A stretch of DNA of 64,000 nt from Rhodohalobacter sp. 614A (GTDB taxonomy: Bacteria; Bacteroidota; Rhodothermia; Balneolales; Balneolaceae), in the NCBI RefSeq assembly GCF_021462415.1, contig NZ_JAKEDS010000001.1:1150273-1214272 (forward strand), given 5' to 3'. The notes beneath the pieces are model-generated. The model saw only the letters and a program-made list of their open reading frames with translations, had not been told where the DNA came from and made no database searches. The position numbers were made by a program, and so were the translations under genes. Positions 32,806-63,735 of the stretch are shown here, piece by piece (position 1 is the first letter of the stretch; each line of letters starts with the position of its first letter).

Positions 32806-33969
32806 TCAGCGGCGATATATTTCACCTTGTCTGTTAGAAAAATTACTTTCTGATGAGTAAATCGTTTTAATGCTGCCGACACTTTTGATTCGCTCTTCAG
32901 CCAGAATATTCGATGCTTCGACCGGGGTAAGATTGTGGTTTTCAGAATATTCGAAAACATTGAGAAGCGTATCATAAATCTGCGATGTTTTCTCCATTGC
33001 CAGCTTTTCATTATAGCCTTGCATTTCACTGGAAATATTGATGATTCCGCCGGCATTGATCACATAATCCGGCGCAAAGAGAATGCCGCGATTTTGAAGC
33101 TCAAGGCTGTGTTTTTTTTCATCATCTAAAATGTTGTTCGCTCCGCCGGCAATGATATCGCAGGAGATGTGACTGATCGTATCATCATTAATAACAGAGC
33201 CAAGTGCGCATGGACTGAAAATGTGGAGATCCAATGTATAGATTTCATCCGGGGATACAACTTCGGCACCGGTTTCTCTTGCCAAATGATTCGCTTTCTC
33301 TTCAAAAATATCCGTGATAAAAAGTTTGGCATTCTCTTTTGCCAGATATCTTGCAAGATAAGTGGCAACCGAACCAGCTCCCTGAATGGCAATTCTTTTG
33401 TTCGATAAAGAGTCACTGCCGTATGCCTTTTTTGCAGCTGCTTTCATACCCATGTAAACGCCATATGCCGTAACAGGGGATGGATCGCCACTACCACCCA
33501 ACGATTTTGGAATGCCGGTTACATATTTGGTTTCGGAATAGATCCAGCTCATTTCGCGCTCTGTCATTCCAACATCTTCTGCTGTGAGATAACGGCCGGC
33601 CAGTCCTTCGATAAATTTCCCGAAGGCACGGAACATGGCTTCGGTTTTGTCGGTTCTGGAGTCACCGATAATCACGGCCTTTCCCCCGCCGAAATTGAGT
33701 CCGGAAATGGCTGCTTTATACGTCATTCCGCGGGACAATCGAAGTGCGTCTCTTATGGCCTGATTTTCGGAGGAATATTTCCACATCCGAACGCCGCCTA
33801 AAGCAGGGCCTAATGTGGTATCGTGGATAGCAACGATTGCTTTGAGTCCCACTTCAGGACGTGAACAAAAAACAAGCTGCTCATGGTTCATATTTACAAG
33901 TTGGCTAAAAAGCGAATAGTCGTTCTCTGACAATATTTTATTATCTGAAACAGCAACTGAATCATTCAT
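32806..33969 (-). CDS. Leucine dehydrogenase (Glu/Leu/Phe/Val dehydrogenase family)
   Basis: 387 residues from the ATG at 33969; an upstream TTG adds two residues. The family reaction is NAD+-dependent oxidative deamination of branched-chain amino acids. Signature: LKAIVAIHDTTLGPALGGVRMW (residues 42-63), Lys85 (TYKAAI) and catalytic Lys97 in NFGGGKAVI, then the NAD fold IAIQGAGSVATYLARYL and GGANNIL. The short size and DTTLGPALGG block fit leucine rather than glutamate dehydrogenase. It has its own terminator. Note that a decayed gdhA fragment lies at 54634-54785; any compensation is speculative. Confidence 0.93.
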   Translation of the reverse strand: MNDSVAVSDNKILSENDYSLFSQLVNMNHEQLVFCSRPEVGLKAIVAIHDTTLGPALGGVRMWKYSSENQAIRDALRLSRGMTYKAAISGLNFGGGKAVIIGDSRTDKTEAMFRAFGKFIEGLAGRYLTAEDVGMTEREMSWIYSETKYVTGIPKSLGGSGDPSPVTAYGVYMGMKAAAKKAYGSDSLSNKRIAIQGAGSVATYLARYLAKENAKLFITDIFEEKANHLARETGAEVVSPDEIYTLDLHIFSPCALGSVINDDTISHISCDIIAGGANNILDDEKKHSLELQNRGILFAPDYVINAGGIINISSEMQGYNEKLAMEKTSQIYDTLLNVFEYSENHNLTPVEASNILAEERIKSVGSIKTIYSSESNFSNRQGEIYRR

Positions 33970-34027
33970 TTTCAAAAACCTTCATCCTCAACATTAAAAT
34001 ATTTTTATGGTAGCGCTTCCAAATATA

Positions 34028-53845: not shown

Positions 53846-54502
53846 TTAGTCAGCAGTAAAACCGATGTTCTTATGTGTTCCATCACAAAAGGGTTTATTC
53901 GATGAACCTCCGCATCTGCAAAGTGCAATTCCTTTTGAAGATGTTATCTCTCCAATTTTGGAGGATTCCAACGTATAGGTTCCTTCCAATAGAACCGGAC
54001 CATTTTTCATTAGTTTGATTAAAAGTTTGTCTTGGTTCTCTTCAAGTGCTTCATCCATATCTGAAGTGTCGGCATCAACATTTGCCTTCCATTCCAGCTT
54101 TTTATGAGAGTTATCGCAGGCCGGTTTATTATCTGATCCTCCACAACGGCACATTGCGAAACGGGTATCCTGAAGAACCGTATTTCCCTCAGCATCCTGA
54201 ACTTCCAGATCTCCAAAGAAATAAACCGGACCATTTTCCTGGAGTTTAATTCGATTTTTTGATGAAGCGGATTCCGACCGATCTCCTTTTTTAATTTCAT
54301 AATGCAGGGCACCGGTCGGGCATCGTTCAATTACATCGGCAATTTCGTTAGCCGTTCTCTTTTCAGGTTGAATCCATGGCTTCTGATTGGGATTAAACAC
54401 ATCACTCAAACCGTGAACACACTCCTCTGCATGGATGCATCTTTTGAGGTTCCAGGTAATTTTAATGTCGTCATTTTCATAGGAATAAATTCGATCCTTC
54501 AT
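53846..54502 (-). CDS. CDGSH iron-sulfur protein with N-terminal 4Fe-4S-like domain
   Basis: A 218-residue protein with three cluster domains. Residues 1-70 are a Fer4_19-type divergent 4Fe-4S domain (Cys22, Cys28, Cys61; RCIHAEEC and CPTGAL). Two CDGSH domains follow: Cys118, Cys120, Cys129, His133 and Cys195, Cys197, Cys206, His210, each the normal three-Cys/one-His 2Fe-2S ligand set. Such proteins are thought to act in redox or Fe-S transfer, location cytosolic. It stands alone near the metal-resistance region. Confidence 0.92.
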   Translation of the reverse strand: MKDRIYSYENDDIKITWNLKRCIHAEECVHGLSDVFNPNQKPWIQPEKRTANEIADVIERCPTGALHYEIKKGDRSESASSKNRIKLQENGPVYFFGDLEVQDAEGNTVLQDTRFAMCRCGGSDNKPACDNSHKKLEWKANVDADTSDMDEALEENQDKLLIKLMKNGPVLLEGTYTLESSKIGEITSSKGIALCRCGGSSNKPFCDGTHKNIGFTAD

Positions 54503-54633: not shown

Positions 54634-54785
54634 ATATCTGTGTACATGATTGATGAGGCTATGGAGCAGGTAAAAAACCATAATCCGGGAGAAAAGAAGG
54701 TTAAAAACATCGATTATGTGAAAGGAGCGAACATAGCCGGTTCAAAAAAGTAGCGGATGCAATGCTGGCATTTGGTCCGGTTTAG
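54634..54785 (+). pseudogene. Remnant of glutamate dehydrogenase (gdhA) C-terminus
   Basis: An orphan coding tail. From ATG 54646 the frame gives IDEAMEQVK, then IDYVKGANIAG, but a base is missing after GGT (54739-54741), so the next codons read SKK then a stop at 54751. In the other frame the text continues FKKVADAMLAFGPV and stops at 54783-54785. This matches the conserved end of NADP-glutamate dehydrogenase (NYVxGANIAGFxKVADAML). Upstream of 54634 the frame has a stop and no further enzyme. So it is a decayed 3' end, with one deletion of a T. It marks a past loss or rearrangement. Confidence 0.85.
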
Positions 54786-54794
54786 AAAAGGTTT

Positions 54795-54866
54795 GTCACT
54801 CAGAGGGAGCGAAGCGACCGAGGAATCTCATTGTTAAAGAGAATCTCTGAGAATGAGATTCTTCAC
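54795..54866. repeat. Inverted repeat element GTCACTC...GGAATCTCATT / AATGAGATTC
   Basis: GAATCTCATT (54823-54832) and AATGAGATTC (54852-54861) are perfect inverted arms within a larger GTCACTC...GAAGCGACC...GGAATCTC block. The whole resembles the repeat family at 38405 and 58201. It lies between the gdhA remnant and the start of the metal region. Confidence 0.8.
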
Positions 54867-54995
54867 AATAAACAGGTATAAAAATCCATTCATAATGTGC
54901 GGAGTAGCATCCGTTCAACCAACATTTGCATCCCGCATTCCTGAATGCTTACCTTATAAATCTTGATTCGAAAGAAAAATATATCAACATTTCTG

Positions 54996-55262
54996 ATGAA
55001 ACCGATCGCATACCTTTTGCTGATCGTGCTCAATCTGCATGCACTCAGTATTCATACTTTTGCAGAAAATTTGGTGTATTGTTTTGAAGAAAATGGAGAT
55101 GTGAATGTGGAGTCAACCGTTGATTTAGGAATCGGGATGAGCTCTGCTAATGAGGTTCATGAACAAGAGAGTCATGAACACAAAGATTCCGTTTTTCATC
55201 AGGAGGAAGATTCACACAAAGATGTGCCCGTTACGCTTTTATGCTCCAAAGATGACCTGTGA
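54996..55262 (+). CDS. Small secreted protein at the head of the metal-efflux operon (5' part)
   Basis: 88 residues from ATG 54996; the frame is open 11 codons further up from a TTG. It has a signal peptide (PIAYLLLIVLNLHALSIHTFA) and a His/Glu/Asp-rich mature part (HEQESHEHKDSVFHQEEDSHKD). It stops at 55262. The -1 frame right after (55259-55426) stays open and its ending looks like a natural protein tail, so this may be a frameshifted ~143-residue protein. His- and acid-rich secreted proteins at the head of Czc/Cus operons are often metal-binding. Function unproven. Confidence 0.55.
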   Translation: MKPIAYLLLIVLNLHALSIHTFAENLVYCFEENGDVNVESTVDLGIGMSSANEVHEQESHEHKDSVFHQEEDSHKDVPVTLLCSKDDL

Positions 55263-55549: not shown

Positions 55550-56923
55550 ATGTCAACATCTATAAAACTGATGCTGGCTGCCGGTTTACTTTTTTTAGCG
55601 TCCGGATGTGCCAGCGAACAGAGGGTGATTGAACCGCCATCTGCAAGCAACGAACGTATTGAAACTGTCGGGAAGAATCCGGCGATATTGAATCTAAACT
55701 CTGTACCTCAGATCGAAACCATTCAGGTTGGAGATACACTGAGTTATGAAGAAGCCCTTGCCAAGGCTCTTCTTGAAAATCCACAATTGGAAAGTTTTGC
55801 CTGGCAAATTCGGGTGAAAGAAGCGGAGCGAATTCAGTCTTCACTGTTACCCAATCCGGAAGTTGAAGCCGAAATGGAAAATTTTGGCGGAACGGGTCCT
55901 TTTGAAGGAATGAAGTCGAGGGAAACCACCATCCGTCTGAGCCAGAAAATACTGTTGGGTGCCGACCGGATGAAACGTAAGCGCGTGGCCGGACTCAATC
56001 AGAAATTGGCTGGATGGGACTATGAAATCCAACGCCTGAATGTGCTTTTTGAAGTGACCAAAGCGTACATCACAGCACTGGAAGCGATGCAGCAATTTCA
56101 ACAACAGCAGGATTTGCTGGAAGTTTCGCAGCAGTTTGCAGAGACGGTTTCGTCGCAAGTAGAAGCTGGAAAAGTCTCAGGCTTGGAGCAAACGAAGGCA
56201 GAAGTTGAATTGTCTCAGGCTCGTATCCAAACTGAAAAAATGCGAACCAGGATGGAAGCTGCATTTGGCAATTTGGCATCCTTCTGGAATAGTCAGTCGC
56301 CGGCATTTAAAACTCTGGACGGGATTTTAAACGAACCGGATCAGGAGATTCCGGGGTATGAATTTCTGCTCGGGTTGATCAACCAGAACCCGGACGTTGC
56401 AAGATGGGCAACGGAAATTCAGCAACGGGAAGCATCTCTTTCTTTGGAGCGGGCAAAAGGTTTACCTGACCTGAAGATTAGTGGAGGTTACAAACGGGTT
56501 GAAGATGTAAATGCCGGAGCCGCGATTGTAGGTATATCGATTCCGCTTCCATTTTTTGATCGCAACCAAGGGAATGTAAAAGCAGCCCGATATAATCTGA
56601 ACAAGGCGGAAGCTCAGCGCGAATCGAAAGAAACGGAAGTGGTCCGGGCGCTTCAGGAAAGTTACCAGACATTAGAGGCCGCGTGGTACGAAGTAAATCA
56701 ATTGAAAAAGAATGTCCTCCCCGGCGCGGAAAAAGCTTATGAAGCCGCGCAAACAGGCTATCGCGAGGGGAAATTTGATTTGTTGGATGTATTGGATGCC
56801 CAACGAACTCTCTTTTCAAGCCGCACCAGTTATATCGAAGCTCTTGCGGATTACCACCGGGCTGTAGCGGATGTCGAACGGCTAATCGGCCAACCTCTCA
56901 ATGAAATTTCTCCCACCGAATGA
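55550..56923 (+). CDS. Outer-membrane efflux protein, CzcC/TolC-like lipoprotein
   Basis: A 457-residue protein with a lipobox ending LASGC (Cys20). The mature part has two OEP domains of repeated helices and strands (YEEALAKALLENPQLESF, later YEEAQTGYREGKFDLLDVLDAQRTLFSSR). This is the outer-membrane channel of a tripartite heavy-metal pump. It overlaps the adaptor gene by 4 bp (ATGA at 56920), so the two are coupled. Metal type is not visible, but the His-rich region of the following protein suggests Co/Zn/Cd. Confidence 0.93.
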   Translation: MSTSIKLMLAAGLLFLASGCASEQRVIEPPSASNERIETVGKNPAILNLNSVPQIETIQVGDTLSYEEALAKALLENPQLESFAWQIRVKEAERIQSSLLPNPEVEAEMENFGGTGPFEGMKSRETTIRLSQKILLGADRMKRKRVAGLNQKLAGWDYEIQRLNVLFEVTKAYITALEAMQQFQQQQDLLEVSQQFAETVSSQVEAGKVSGLEQTKAEVELSQARIQTEKMRTRMEAAFGNLASFWNSQSPAFKTLDGILNEPDQEIPGYEFLLGLINQNPDVARWATEIQQREASLSLERAKGLPDLKISGGYKRVEDVNAGAAIVGISIPLPFFDRNQGNVKAARYNLNKAEAQRESKETEVVRALQESYQTLEAAWYEVNQLKKNVLPGAEKAYEAAQTGYREGKFDLLDVLDAQRTLFSSRTSYIEALADYHRAVADVERLIGQPLNEISPTE

Positions 56924-58191
56924 TTTTTATGAAACGAATAATCAACACTATGAAAACGATAAAATTACTCACAATCTGGATCGCTCTTTGCACCGGGATT
57001 TTCCTTGGCGGATGCGGCTCAGAAAGTGAGCCAAATCAGATAGAGAATCAGGATGGAAGGGCAATTCATGAATTGCCCCAACAAGATATCGAAGAACATT
57101 CTGAAGCAGATGAAGAACACACTCAGGAAGTGCATCTCACAAATCAGCAACTTGCAGGATTAAATATAGTGGTTGATACACTTCGTTCAGGAAGTACCCG
57201 ATCTGTGATTGAACGACCCGCGACTGTAACGTATGATCTCGACCGAATTGCCAAAGTAGGTCCGCGAATTGAGGCAAAAGTGGTCTGCGTTCTGAAAGAT
57301 CTGGGCGAGTATGTTGAGGAAGGCGAGCCCATTGTGCAAATGAGTAGCGTAGAGCTGGGGAAAATCAAAGCCGATTATATTCGGCTGAAAGCGGCTTTGA
57401 AAAAAGAAGAAGCTCATTACGGCCGGGAACAAAATCTGTATAATCAGGAGATTTCGAGTCAGGCCGAGTTGCTTCAGGCTGAGCTGGAATATGAACAGGC
57501 CCAGGCCGACCTCAATGCCATTTCTGAAGCGTTGCGATTGTATGGTCTCTCTGAACAATCGATCGAAAATATTAAAGCCGGAAACGAAACACCGCTTTCT
57601 TATTTCTATCTGAGCAGCCCTTTAAGCGGGACCATTCAACATCGTGAACTCTCTCCCGGCCAAACCGTTACGCCAGATGAAACGCCCATTCATGTAGCTG
57701 ATCTGTCAGAAGTGTGGGTGATGATTGACGCGTATGAGCAAGACATTTCATTCCTGGAAACCGATCAGTCCATCGAACTGACGGTACGAAGTATTCCCAA
57801 AAAATCATTTGAAGGAACTCTTAACTGGATCTCCTATGGTCTCGAAGAAGAAACCCGAACCATGCCGGCGAGAGCAAAAGTCAACAATTCGAATGGAGAG
57901 TTAAGAGCAGGCATGTTTGGCACAGTACGAATTCATACGAATCGTGAACAAAAAACCACCATCATTCCGGTGGATGCCATTCAGCAGATGAATGGCGAGA
58001 ATCACGTCTTTGTGCCCGGAGATGAAGAGGGAAGTTTTCGTTCGGTACAGGTAACGCTTGGCAATGAAAATGCAGGGTATGTGGAAGTTCTGGCCGGCCT
58101 CGCACCGGGAAGTGAAGTTGTGGTAGCCGGTGCATTCGATCTTAAATCAGCTTTAACGGCGGGTAGCCGAAGTGCTTCACATAGCCATTGA
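56920..58191 (+). CDS. Heavy-metal efflux RND periplasmic adaptor (CzcB/CusB-like)
   Basis: A 423-residue lipoprotein (LGGCG, Cys32) of the metal-efflux adaptor group. The N-terminal linker is rich in Glu/His (EEHSEADEEHTQEVHLT). Lipoyl, alpha-hairpin (about 150-205) and beta-barrel domains follow. Bases 57059-57078 form a perfect 20-bp palindrome that lies in-frame and encodes RAIHELPQ. It connects the CzcA pump to the CzcC channel. The start is the ATGA overlap with czcC; two later ATGs (56929, 56950) are possible. The 119-bp gap to the next gene contains a repeat element. Confidence 0.92.
   Translation: MIFMKRIINTMKTIKLLTIWIALCTGIFLGGCGSESEPNQIENQDGRAIHELPQQDIEEHSEADEEHTQEVHLTNQQLAGLNIVVDTLRSGSTRSVIERPATVTYDLDRIAKVGPRIEAKVVCVLKDLGEYVEEGEPIVQMSSVELGKIKADYIRLKAALKKEEAHYGREQNLYNQEISSQAELLQAELEYEQAQADLNAISEALRLYGLSEQSIENIKAGNETPLSYFYLSSPLSGTIQHRELSPGQTVTPDETPIHVADLSEVWVMIDAYEQDISFLETDQSIELTVRSIPKKSFEGTLNWISYGLEEETRTMPARAKVNNSNGELRAGMFGTVRIHTNREQKTTIIPVDAIQQMNGENHVFVPGDEEGSFRSVQVTLGNENAGYVEVLAGLAPGSEVVVAGAFDLKSALTAGSRSASHSH
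57059..57078. repeat. Perfect 20-bp palindrome inside the adaptor gene
   Basis: GGGCAATTCATGAATTGCCC, identical to the cores at 62404-62423 and 63741-63760. It lies in frame and encodes residues about 47-53 of the adaptor, in its flexible N-terminal linker. Confidence 0.9.
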
Positions 58192-58200
58192 TATAAAAAC

Positions 58201-58280
58201 GTCATTGCAGATGGGGCTTTAGTAAACCAAGCAATCTCTTCTTTTGGAATATCAGATTGCTTCGCTCTGCTCGCAATGAT
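58201..58280. repeat. Inverted repeat element between adaptor and pump genes
   Basis: GTCATTGC...CAAGCAATCT (58201-58237) and AGATTGCTTC...GCAATGAT (58254-58280) form an imperfect long hairpin, of the same kind as 38405-38469. It sits inside the metal-efflux operon. Confidence 0.8.
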
Positions 58281-58309
58281 CCATTTTTAATTGATAAAAA
58301 TTTTAAACG

Positions 58310-61300
58310 ATGCTTGAACAAATTATTGAACGGGTTTTAAAAAACCGTATTACGATTTTGGTTTTGGTCGCAGCCATTGCGCTGTATGGATATTTTTCGT
58401 TTCGGGATGTTCCTGTTGATTCATTTCCGGACGTATCACCCCCAATGGTACAGGTTTTTACATCCAGTCCGGGACTTTCTCCGGTTGATGTAGAGACACA
58501 AATTAGTTATCCCATTGAGATTTCGATGTACGGATTACCACAACTCGACCGGGTTCAAAGTACGTCGATTTTCGGCCTGTCGAGAGTAAATATTTATTTT
58601 GAGGAGGGGACGGATATTTACTTCGCCCGCCGATTAGTAAATGAGCGATTATCACAGGTGAGAAGTGAAATTCCCGACGGATTGGGAGATCCGCAACTTG
58701 GCCCTATTACCACCGGATTGGGAACAGTCATGATGTACGAACTGAAAAACCGTGAAGGATTCAATCATTCGTTAATGGACCTTCGAACCGCCCAGGACTG
58801 GATCGTAAAACCTCAACTGCGAACCGTTCCGGGTGTAACCGGAGTGCTTTCCATCGGGGGAGATGTACGCCAGTTCCAGGTCAATGCAGACGTGAATGCA
58901 CTAGTGTCTCGCGGATTAACGCTCGGTGATCTTCAACGAGCCCTGAATCAAAACAACCGGAATGTTGGAGCTTCATTTCTCGAACGTGGCGGGGAAGAGT
59001 ATTTGGTTCGCGGCTATGGCTGGATTCAGCCGGATGAACAAGGGATTGCTGACATCGGAAATATCATCGTTGCAAACCGTGAGGGCACACCCGTTTATGT
59101 GAAGGATGTGGCTGATATAGAGTTTGGGTCCGAAATTAAACGGGGAACGTTAGTTGCAAATCAACAGGAGGGAGTCGGGGGATTTGTACTCAAACTGATT
59201 GGCGAAAATACGCAGGATCTGTTGGCAGAGGTGGATCAAAAAGTTGACGCCATCAATAAGTCACTGCCGGAGGGAATGATCATGGAAACATTCTACTCGC
59301 AGGCAGAATTGGTTGAAAAAGCGGTCGGAACGGTGACAAATGCTTTGATCATCGGAGCTATACTGGTTCTGGTTGTGCTTTACTTTTTTATGGGTGATAT
59401 CCGGTCCACATTGATCATCATTTCTACTGTTCCCATTGCATTTTTGATCGCATTCATCGGAATGAAATTTCTCGGAATTTCGGCAAACCTGATGAGCCTC
59501 GGAGGATTGGCCATCAGCATCGGGATGATTGGCGATAGTGCCACTGTCATTGTAGAGAATACCTACAGATTATTGGAAAAACGAAAAGAAAGAAATGTAC
59601 CTCTGACCAGAATTGTAAGTGAAGCAGCACGCGAGGTGATTCGTCCGGTTTTTTTCGCTACAAGTATTATCATCATCGTATTTCTGCCGTTGTTTTCTTT
59701 GGAGGGAGTGGAGGGCAAAATGTTCAAACCGCTGGCCTACACTATTACGTTTGCGTTGATCGGTGCGATCTTTCTGGCAGTCACATATATCCCAATTATT
59801 TCCAGTTATATTTTGCCGCAACAAGAGATGGATAAAGAGCCTTGGTTGGTACGAAATATAAAAGCCCACACCGAGCCATGGATCGAGAAACTGTCTCATT
59901 ATCCCAAAATGGTTTTTGGTGCTGCATTGTTTTTGTTCGCTGTAAGTATGGCTGTTTTTCCTTTTTTGGGAACCGAATTTCAGCCGACACTTCGTGAAGG
60001 GACGTTTGCTGTTCGGTCGGTGCTTCCGCCCGGTGCCAATTTGCCCACGACAACGGAATATGCCAATCGCATACAGAAGGCGATGCGAACTTTTCCTGAG
60101 GTTGAAGGTGTTTATTCGCGAGTAGGGCGGGCAGAAGTTGGCGGTGATCCCGAGCCGGTAAATGTCGTTTTTAATGTAGTCAATTTAAAACCGCTCGATG
60201 AATGGAAGTGGGGCCGTGATTATGAAGAACTTCAAACCGCAATGGCGGAAAAACTGTCAGAAGATCTGCCCGGCGTTTCATCGAACTTTTCCCAGCCTAT
60301 TCAGTTGCGGACCGATGAATTGCTGAGTGGCGTTCGGGCCCAGGTGGTGGTCAGTTTATATGGTGATGACCTGGACGTCTTATCTGAAAAAGCTAGAGAA
60401 ATTCAGGAGATAGCCCAGAAAGTGGAAGGAGCGGTAGATGTCAGAGCTCAACAACAGGGAGGAAAGCCGCAGATTTTGGTCCGACCCGATCGAGGGCAAT
60501 TAGCGCGTCTTGGGATCAGCATGGATGATTTTCTAAGCACCGTAGAAACAGGAATTGGCGGTTCTGAAGAAGGACAAGTATTCGAGGGAATCCGTCGGTT
60601 TGATATTTTTCTTCGCCTGCATCAAGATCAGCGGAAGCAGATTAATCAGATCGAAGAGTTGCCGATTCGTACGGCTGACGGAGCGTTGGTTCCGTTGTCT
60701 CAAATTGCAGATGTGGACGTGTTTATCGGGCCAAAACAAATTTCCCGGAATAAAGCCCATCGCAGAACCTATGTTCAGCTGAATGTTCGGGGACGAGATA
60801 TGGGAAGTGTCGTTAATGAAATTCAGCAAAAAGTGGCTGATCAGGTGGAGCTGCCACCGGGTTATTTTACCGAATATGGCGGGCAGTTTGAAAATCAACA
60901 GCGGGCGATGAGTCGTCTTTATCTCGTGGTTCCGATTACACTCGGACTCATTTTCTTTATGCTTTTTTCCACTTTTGGAAGCTGGAGATATGCGGTTCTC
61001 ATCTTTCTGAATATTCCCTTCGCAACGATCGGAGGCATTTTTGCTCTTTGGATATCCGGTCTGTATTTGTCCGTACCGGCAGCCGTTGGGTTTATCGCCA
61101 TTTTTGGGATTGCCGTTTTAAACGGGGTTGTCTTGGTGTCGTACATCAATCAGCTCAGAGAAGAAGGTTTTGAAACGCATAAAGCGGTGGTTCAGGCCGC
61201 TCTGCTACGTCTGCGTCCCGTGTTAATGACGGCCCTGACGACCGGCCTCGGACTCATTCCCCTGCTCCTTGCAAATGATATCGGCTCAAACGTACAGCGA

Positions 61301-61420
61301 CCACTTGCGGCTGTTGTTGTGGGAGGATTGGTGACATCAACGCTGTTAACGCTGGTAGTTTTGCCAACTATTTATACATGGTTTGCTGAGCCGGTTGAGC
61401 ATGTCGAGACAATCAAATAA
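58310..61420 (+). CDS. Heavy-metal efflux RND pump, CzcA/CusA family
   Basis: A 1036-residue pump. It keeps the full RND plan: TM1 (ITILVLVAAIALYGYF), two large periplasmic domains and 12 helices. The TM4 relay reads SIGMIGDSATVIVENTYRLLEK, with Asp and Glu spaced as in the HME-RND metal pumps rather than in drug pumps. The proton-driven pump moves metal from the periplasm or cytosol out via CzcB and CzcC. I cannot tell monovalent from divalent metal; CusA-type Met triad residues were not found by eye, which slightly favours Zn/Co/Cd. It is the third gene of the operon. Confidence 0.93.
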   Translation: MLEQIIERVLKNRITILVLVAAIALYGYFSFRDVPVDSFPDVSPPMVQVFTSSPGLSPVDVETQISYPIEISMYGLPQLDRVQSTSIFGLSRVNIYFEEGTDIYFARRLVNERLSQVRSEIPDGLGDPQLGPITTGLGTVMMYELKNREGFNHSLMDLRTAQDWIVKPQLRTVPGVTGVLSIGGDVRQFQVNADVNALVSRGLTLGDLQRALNQNNRNVGASFLERGGEEYLVRGYGWIQPDEQGIADIGNIIVANREGTPVYVKDVADIEFGSEIKRGTLVANQQEGVGGFVLKLIGENTQDLLAEVDQKVDAINKSLPEGMIMETFYSQAELVEKAVGTVTNALIIGAILVLVVLYFFMGDIRSTLIIISTVPIAFLIAFIGMKFLGISANLMSLGGLAISIGMIGDSATVIVENTYRLLEKRKERNVPLTRIVSEAAREVIRPVFFATSIIIIVFLPLFSLEGVEGKMFKPLAYTITFALIGAIFLAVTYIPIISSYILPQQEMDKEPWLVRNIKAHTEPWIEKLSHYPKMVFGAALFLFAVSMAVFPFLGTEFQPTLREGTFAVRSVLPPGANLPTTTEYANRIQKAMRTFPEVEGVYSRVGRAEVGGDPEPVNVVFNVVNLKPLDEWKWGRDYEELQTAMAEKLSEDLPGVSSNFSQPIQLRTDELLSGVRAQVVVSLYGDDLDVLSEKAREIQEIAQKVEGAVDVRAQQQGGKPQILVRPDRGQLARLGISMDDFLSTVETGIGGSEEGQVFEGIRRFDIFLRLHQDQRKQINQIEELPIRTADGALVPLSQIADVDVFIGPKQISRNKAHRRTYVQLNVRGRDMGSVVNEIQQKVADQVELPPGYFTEYGGQFENQQRAMSRLYLVVPITLGLIFFMLFSTFGSWRYAVLIFLNIPFATIGGIFALWISGLYLSVPAAVGFIAIFGIAVLNGVVLVSYINQLREEGFETHKAVVQAALLRLRPVLMTALTTGLGLIPLLLANDIGSNVQRPLAAVVVGGLVTSTLLTLVVLPTIYTWFAEPVEHVETIK

Positions 61421-61487: not shown

Positions 61488-62387
61488 ATGGCACATAATC
61501 ATTCCCATTCACACGATCATTCTCATGCGCAAACGTACGGAAAAGCATTTGCGATTGGGATTGGCCTGAATGTAGCCTATGTAATTGTTGAGGTTGCGTA
61601 CGGATTGATGATCGATTCGTCAGCACTTTTAGCTGATGCCGGTCACAATATAAGTGATGTATTCAGCCTGATTTTTGCCTGGTTTGCGATGGCGGTTGCA
61701 CAAAAACGTCCTGCAAAGAAGTTTACCTATGGGCTGAGAAGAAGTACCATTTTAGTGTCTATCCTAAATGCGCTGCTTCTGTTTGGAGCTGCCGGAGTGA
61801 TTGGCTGGGAAGCGTATCAAAAACTATTGGAACCGGTTGAAGTGGCCGGAACCAAGATGATGATCGTAGCCGGAATCGGAATTGTGATTAACACCGCAAC
61901 GGCTCTTCTCTTTATGAAAGGCCAAAAAGAGGATCTGAATATCAAAGGAGCGTTTCTGCATATGGCAGCAGACGCCGGAGTTTCTTTAGGTGTGGTCGTT
62001 TCCGGTTTACTGATTAATATGACCGGCGCCATGTGGATTGATCCCGCAGCCAGTTTTTTGATTTTGATTGTCATTGTTTACGGTACATGGGGATTATTTA
62101 TCGATTCTATTAATCTTGCGTTGGATGCCGTTCCAAAAGATATTGATTACGAAGAAGTGGAACAGTTTTTCCAAAATCATGAAAAGATCGAATCCATCCA
62201 TGATCTGCATATCTGGGCGATGAGTACGACCGAGAATGCCCTATCCGTTCACATTATTTTAAATTGTGATAGTTCGGATGATTTCCTGAAAGAACTAAAA
62301 GAAGAGCTGAAAGATCATTTCAAGATCCATCATTCTACGATTCAAATAGAGGTTTCGGATTTGAAGGATAGTTTGATGGATGAATGA
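61488..62387 (+). CDS. Cation diffusion facilitator, zinc type (CzcD/ZitB-like)
   Basis: A 299-residue CDF protein. It starts with a His-rich tail (MAHNHSHSHDHSHAQT). Six TM helices contain the transport site: Asp50, His53 and Asp57 in TM2 (LLADAGHNISDVF) and His158 and Asp162 in TM5 (HMAADAGVSL), the HD/HD set of Zn2+ exporters. A C-terminal cytosolic domain (about 210-299) ends in the dimer region. It exports zinc (or Co/Cd) from the cytosol to the periplasm, where CzcCBA can take over. Starts 67 bp behind czcA. Confidence 0.93.
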   Translation: MAHNHSHSHDHSHAQTYGKAFAIGIGLNVAYVIVEVAYGLMIDSSALLADAGHNISDVFSLIFAWFAMAVAQKRPAKKFTYGLRRSTILVSILNALLLFGAAGVIGWEAYQKLLEPVEVAGTKMMIVAGIGIVINTATALLFMKGQKEDLNIKGAFLHMAADAGVSLGVVVSGLLINMTGAMWIDPAASFLILIVIVYGTWGLFIDSINLALDAVPKDIDYEEVEQFFQNHEKIESIHDLHIWAMSTTENALSVHIILNCDSSDDFLKELKEELKDHFKIHHSTIQIEVSDLKDSLMDE

Positions 62388-62527: not shown

Positions 62528-62914
62528 TCAAATTGCTTGAATAACCTTCTCCAATTTAGACTTCACCTCACCGGCAATGTTTCCCAGGTTTGAGTTCTCT
62601 ACCGCCTGCATAGACGCAATCGGATTTACTGCAGAAATCTCCACGGTACCATCATCATGCTCTTCCACAATGACGTTGCAGGGTAACATGGTCCCGATTT
62701 TATCCTCTGCCTGAAGAGCTTTGTGTGCAAAACCAGGATTGCAGGCACCCAGTATTTTGTACTTTTTGAAATCAACATCCAGCTTCTTCTTGAGTGTTTC
62801 TTTCACATCAATTTCTGTCAGCACGCCAAAGCCTTCTTTCTTGAGTTCTTCAGTCGTTTTAGCGATCGCTTCATCAAATGATCCTTTAAATGTTGTGGAT
62901 ACGTAGTAACTCAT
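62528..62914 (-). CDS. DUF302 domain protein
   Basis: A 128-residue protein with the DUF302 fold (FDEAIAKTTEELKKEGFGVLTEIDVKETLKKKLDVDFKKYKILGACNPGFAHKAL). It has a conserved Cys (GACNPG) and a second Cys in LPCNVIVEE. DUF302 proteins often appear beside metal-resistance genes and sometimes in sulfur metabolism, with unknown activity. No signal peptide, so probably cytosolic. It converges with the CDF gene and diverges from the following unknown gene. Confidence 0.88.
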   Translation of the reverse strand: MSYYVSTTFKGSFDEAIAKTTEELKKEGFGVLTEIDVKETLKKKLDVDFKKYKILGACNPGFAHKALQAEDKIGTMLPCNVIVEEHDDGTVEISAVNPIASMQAVENSNLGNIAGEVKSKLEKVIQAI

Positions 62915-63072: not shown

Positions 63073-63735
63073 ATGCTGAAGAAGATCAAAGCTATTTTGA
63101 AAAAAGCCACCCGGAACTCGCCTTCTTTTGATCCGGCAAAATTTAATGACGATGTAGCGATGAAAACGGAATGGAGTCCGTTAAAGGGCGGCGGATCCAA
63201 TTTTCAAACTCATAAACTTGTCCCTGTTGATTACACACGAATGGAATTCAAAGCAACATGGGGTGCCAAGATTTTTAGCCTGATCTTTTTTATGGCTGGT
63301 CTTGCCGTTCCGGTGATATTCCGGATCAATAATAGTCAGGTATTCGGCGGGATTTTCGGATCGGGATTTTTATTCATCGTACTGTTCGGAGCGATTTTTA
63401 TGGTAGCCGGTGGCTGGATGTTTTACAGTTTTGCAAAACCGGTTGTTTTCGATAAAACGAAAGGCATGTACTGGAAAGATTGGAAAGCGCCAACCCGATA
63501 CCTAGCTGAAGGTGATGAAGATGACAGCAGCAGAATAAGCAATATCTATGCCCTTCAAATTATACCCGAATTGGTACGGAGTGATAATAAAAGCTACGTG
63601 AGTTATGAACTCAACCTGATTCTGCGAGATGGCTCCCGGATGAATGTAGTGGATCACGGAAATCCAGTTCAAATGCAGGAGGACGCCCAAAAACTTTCAG
63701 AATTTCTGGGCGTCCCCGTTTGGGATGTAGTCTGA
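63073..63735 (+). CDS. Unknown membrane protein with two TM helices
   Basis: A 220-residue protein I do not recognise. The first 60 residues are basic and polar, two hydrophobic helices follow (about 65-87 FSLIFFMAGLAVPVIF and 95-122 GFLFIVLFGAIFMVAGGWMFY), and a 95-residue C-terminal part has a WKDWKAPTRYL motif and beta-strand pattern ending in VPVWDVV. It could be a membrane-anchored regulatory or structural protein. It is followed by the third palindrome and then the DUF305 gene on the other strand. Codon and base use looks like its neighbours. Confidence 0.68.
   Translation: MLKKIKAILKKATRNSPSFDPAKFNDDVAMKTEWSPLKGGGSNFQTHKLVPVDYTRMEFKATWGAKIFSLIFFMAGLAVPVIFRINNSQVFGGIFGSGFLFIVLFGAIFMVAGGWMFYSFAKPVVFDKTKGMYWKDWKAPTRYLAEGDEDDSSRISNIYALQIIPELVRSDNKSYVSYELNLILRDGSRMNVVDHGNPVQMQEDAQKLSEFLGVPVWDVV

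Follow-up and report, generated by a model that had tools for sequence, protein, structure and literature searches.

The stretch of DNA analysed here (the window: 64,000 nt of the genome of Rhodohalobacter sp. 614A) carries an ordinary pseudogene, a glutamate dehydrogenase gene (gdhA) at a recent stage of decay. In the reading that we favour, to which we assign a probability of about 0.9, gdhA has remained in its original place and was inactivated by an internal deletion and the loss of one base, the neighbouring czc metal-efflux operon being a separate matter. Its sequence identifies the fragment as part of an NADP-type gdhA, and it holds both ends of the gene, the first ~20 codons as well as the 3′ end, the latter being one base short. 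About nine-tenths of gdhA, the middle, is lost, and only the first and last few codons are left. The features of the region are collected in Table 1.

Table 1. Coordinates of the gdhA relic and of the features around it in the window.
Feature	Position	Strand	Remarks	Evidence
CDGSH / Fer4_19 protein gene	53846..54502	-	divergent neighbour, also in G027	Pfam and synteny
gdhA relic, 5′ part	54640..54699	+	begins with GTG; about 20 codons retained, VYMIDEAMEQVKNHNPGEKK	N-terminal profile and G027 alignment
Deletion-junction zone	54688..54705	+	gdhA shorter here by a net 1191 nt (397 codons); frame open throughout	
gdhA relic, 3′ part	54706..54785	+	last 26-27 codons and TAG; base missing near 54739	C-terminal profile
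REP-like hairpin	54793..54865	+	just 3′ of the gdhA stop	
Small His-rich ORF	54963..55262	+	before czcC in related modules	
czcC-czcB-czcA type RND metal efflux operon	55550..61420	+		Pfam
CDF cation efflux gene	61488..62387	+	immediately 3′ of gdhA in G027	Pfam and synteny
DUF302 gene	62528..62914	-	neighbour common to window and G027	Pfam and synteny
Membrane protein gene, no Pfam match	63073..63735	+	neighbour common to window and G027	

The relic spans positions 54640-54785. Its GTG-started frame, open to 54753, reads VYMIDEAMEQVKNHNPGEKKVKNIDYVKGANIAGSKK-stop and contains YVKGANIAG in the frame of 54640, and the neighbouring frame, 54741-54785, reads FKKVADAMLAFGPV-stop; in the alignment with the gdhA of a congener, G027, the relic has one base fewer between these two parts of the signature. 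The C-terminal signature of NADP-specific GdhA, YxKGANIAGFxKVADAM, is therefore present across two frames with one base missing, as the initial annotation had it, and so is the N-terminal start segment of this protein (..NPxExEF). Ungapped profiles built on 29 GdhA sequences from the family were scored at all six-frame positions of the window. With the profile of residues 420-433, position 54706 ranked first of 127,918 (38.1 bits, the next position reaching 10.1), and with that of residues 1-20, position 54640 ranked first of 127,882 (21.9 bits, the next 9.6). The latter result corrects the earlier description of the fragment as a 3′ end with nothing upstream, since the start of gdhA lies at 54640-54699.

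One finding speaks against this assignment of the upstream residues: the NCBIfam and local HMM alignments extend them into the C-terminal region (models 402/403-432/434). The reading in which these residues belong to the C-terminal region (HMM model 402-432) was rejected, as the separate profiles clearly favour the N-terminus. Indeed, the N-terminal profile ranks the site first, whereas the profile of residues 398-417, scored over the window, does not place it among its top five positions, all of which fall below zero. An NCBIfam search with the 35-residue peptide from 54646 gave GdhA models as its two best matches, with E-values (0.015 and 0.064) that are weak for the peptide length, and a phmmer search of the same peptide against PDB returned no GdhA.

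Compared with NADP-specific GdhA (NF006929 / PRK09414), as represented by the G027 copy, the relic shares the start, the end, the place in the genome and the 3′ flank; it measures 146 nt against 1338 nt, that is, 1192 nt fewer, or 397 codons plus one base, so that both domains of the enzyme, dimerisation and nucleotide-binding, are essentially gone. The reading frame is uninterrupted at the joint of the two ends. Since the two ends of the gene and its 3′ flank are preserved, the loss is an internal deletion that does not reach the efflux operon. Synteny with G027 shows that an intact NADP-type gdhA once stood between the CDGSH and CDF genes. With the gene of that genome taken as a stand-in for the lost ancestral sequence, the deletion joined codon ~20 in frame to codon ~418, and the one-base loss, earlier or later than the deletion, put the final codons out of frame. 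A likely mechanism is that short repeats recombined by slippage or end-joining, the motif GGAGA occurring in the G027 gene near both places that match the joint. Bacterial pseudogenes that arise by internal deletion retain their ends, lose the middle and carry a frameshift; the relic matches them in all three traits, with no notable difference.

The genomic context supports the same history. The order in G027 is CDGSH gene, divergent gdhA, CDF transporter, DUF302 and membrane protein, and that in the window is CDGSH, relic, small ORF-czcC-czcB-czcA, CDF, DUF302 and membrane protein. The orthologue in G027 (contig C50, copy at L033:6678-8015) is intact and syntenic, and it is the only intact gdhA found at the relic's place in a congener, so that the expectation of a full gdhA beside the CDGSH gene in relatives held for this one genome. 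The CDF-DUF302-membrane protein backbone is present in G026 too, where it encloses a different RND pump and where the CDGSH and CDF genes stand about 14 kb apart, with other genes in between. At 13 other congener CDGSH loci (L035-L047) no gdhA lies nearby, and DUF423 is found within about 1.5 kb of CDGSH; this wide comparison leaves out G006, G010 and G021, whose CDGSH matches are weak. In turn, neither the CDGSH nor the CDF gene occurs at any of the gdhA loci retrieved from other congeners.

A match over the NF006929 cut-off of 536 bits is present in 22 of the 28 genomes of the genus. The window genome (G000), which is 99.3% complete in 10 contigs, has no gene over this threshold, so the locus is a relic and not a GdhA; G001 and G002, near complete like G000, have none either, and the remaining genomes without such a match are G025, which is incomplete, and G013 and G016, where the match is truncated. 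Of the earlier wording, a gene lost or relocated, the first half thus stands and the second does not. Nor is there a full NADP-type gdhA elsewhere in the genome, as had been thought possible, only two other GDH-like genes of 435 and 467 residues, both under the NF006929 cut-off and of types that occur across the genus; their retention probably made the loss of gdhA tolerable. The relic records a single case in which NADP-type glutamate dehydrogenase was recently lost, in a genus most of whose members keep the gene. The window also encodes a 391-residue ELFV dehydrogenase (32809-33981, - strand), whose nearest NCBIfam model is tryptophan dehydrogenase ScyB, below cut-off (413.6 vs 600 bits).

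As for the age of the loss, the 3′ part of the relic matches G027 at 63 of 72 nt, the affected codon being omitted, which makes it the closest of the compared loci, followed by G062 with 56 of 72; eight of 28 loci were comparable at this end, the others having been removed by the motif and length filter. Over the 78 positions compared, nine differ from G027, eight of them synonymously as we read the codons. As nearly all of these differences are synonymous, gdhA probably died recently; most of the divergence would have arisen while the gene was still under selection, and its death would be recent relative to the split from G027. The 5′ part matches the G027 start at 36 of 60 nt in an ungapped comparison, mostly in its second half. 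Furthermore, the 3′ flanks of the relic and of the G027 gene align with a score of 42 (shuffled mean 23.0, sd 4.2), equalled by 1 of 2000 shuffles and by 2 of 3000 random 60-mers of the window, and the 60 nt 5′ of the start have no similarity to their G027 counterpart (score 24, shuffled mean 26.4).

The position of the relic beside the czc operon, which the initial annotation had recognized, led there to the proposal that the metal cluster replaced gdhA. That the arrival of the operon destroyed the gene, leaving its 3′ end only, appears quite improbable. The operon does separate the relic from the CDF gene, gdhA and CDF being adjacent in G027, and the window czcA has closer counterparts in other genera than in any other genome of its own genus; nevertheless, the start of gdhA and its 3′ flank are both retained and the operon begins downstream of them, so that neither border of the loss touches it. 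Moreover, the CDF gene, whose close relatives are confined to 7 of 92 genomes of the family, is preceded by a czcCBA with czcA of the window type in three of the four relatives outside the genus that have it (G091, G043 and G038, not G044), and the operon may therefore predate the loss of gdhA. It may have adjoined CDF before gdhA died and then been lost from G027. The small ORF and czcCBA, located in the window 3′ of the relic and 5′ of CDF, recur together as a unit in other genera, and from this recurrence the unit may have been either gained in the window lineage or lost in G027. From the borders we infer that the presence of the operon and the deletion in gdhA are separate events. The lesson is that a relic adjoining an acquired-looking operon was not necessarily destroyed by it.

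It is very hard to believe that the 48-codon in-frame joint product, or a peptide of 35-37 residues, is a functional small protein, even though the two ends are joined in frame within an open ORF. A DNA search of the 28 genus genomes found no relic-like short ORF in relatives, and hence no conserved small ORF of the kind that would speak against a decayed gene; at the locus in the 27 congeners it met no equivalent, only full gdhA genes, the matches to the relic parts outside G000 being those of G004, G007, G012 and G027. In addition, the relic frame is lost ahead of the natural stop, and the sequence 5′ of 54640 holds no clear ribosome site. Equally hard to credit is the idea that the joined ends constitute a new short peptide, expressed with some role, e.g., as a leader of the efflux operon. 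An assembly or sequencing error is likewise extremely unlikely: the single-base loss falls in a GG run, where such an error could be suspected, but an internal loss of 1.2 kb would be unusual as a base-calling error, and no second copy of the relic sequence was found in this nearly complete assembly. The preferred reading thus remains that of a gdhA pseudogene still in situ.

Several observations concern the efflux genes themselves. The ORF at 54963-55262 encodes 99 residues, is His-rich and stands regularly 5′ of czcC in related units; it has no Pfam or NCBIfam match. In a czcA tree of 24 rows the window copy has a long branch and is placed next to the genus-g4 clade (support 89/96), a tentative position that gives no date for the arrival of the operon. 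The window genome has a second small ORF-czcCBA unit (contig C6:58000-77000, L258), whose czcA falls inside the genus g4 clade, which probably reflects a recent transfer. G026 encodes, at L253:8272-12630, a 1452-residue RND metal pump with czcA- and czcC-like parts in one open frame.

Finally, the inverted repeat that had been noted next to the relic is real (54820-54864, 81% complementary). The hairpin that contains it (z -4.1) has a diverged counterpart 3′ of the intact gdhA of G027, too diverged for the REP-like search pattern. At three mismatches or fewer this pattern finds the element in 3 of the 28 genomes: a single copy each in the window genome, G026 and G027, the G027 copy lying on another contig. 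With a single copy in the window genome, its interpretation as a dispersed repeat was rejected, as was that of a gdhA-site marker in all three genomes, the G026 copy following a different gene. Three Y1 transposase matches in the window genome exceed the cut-off.
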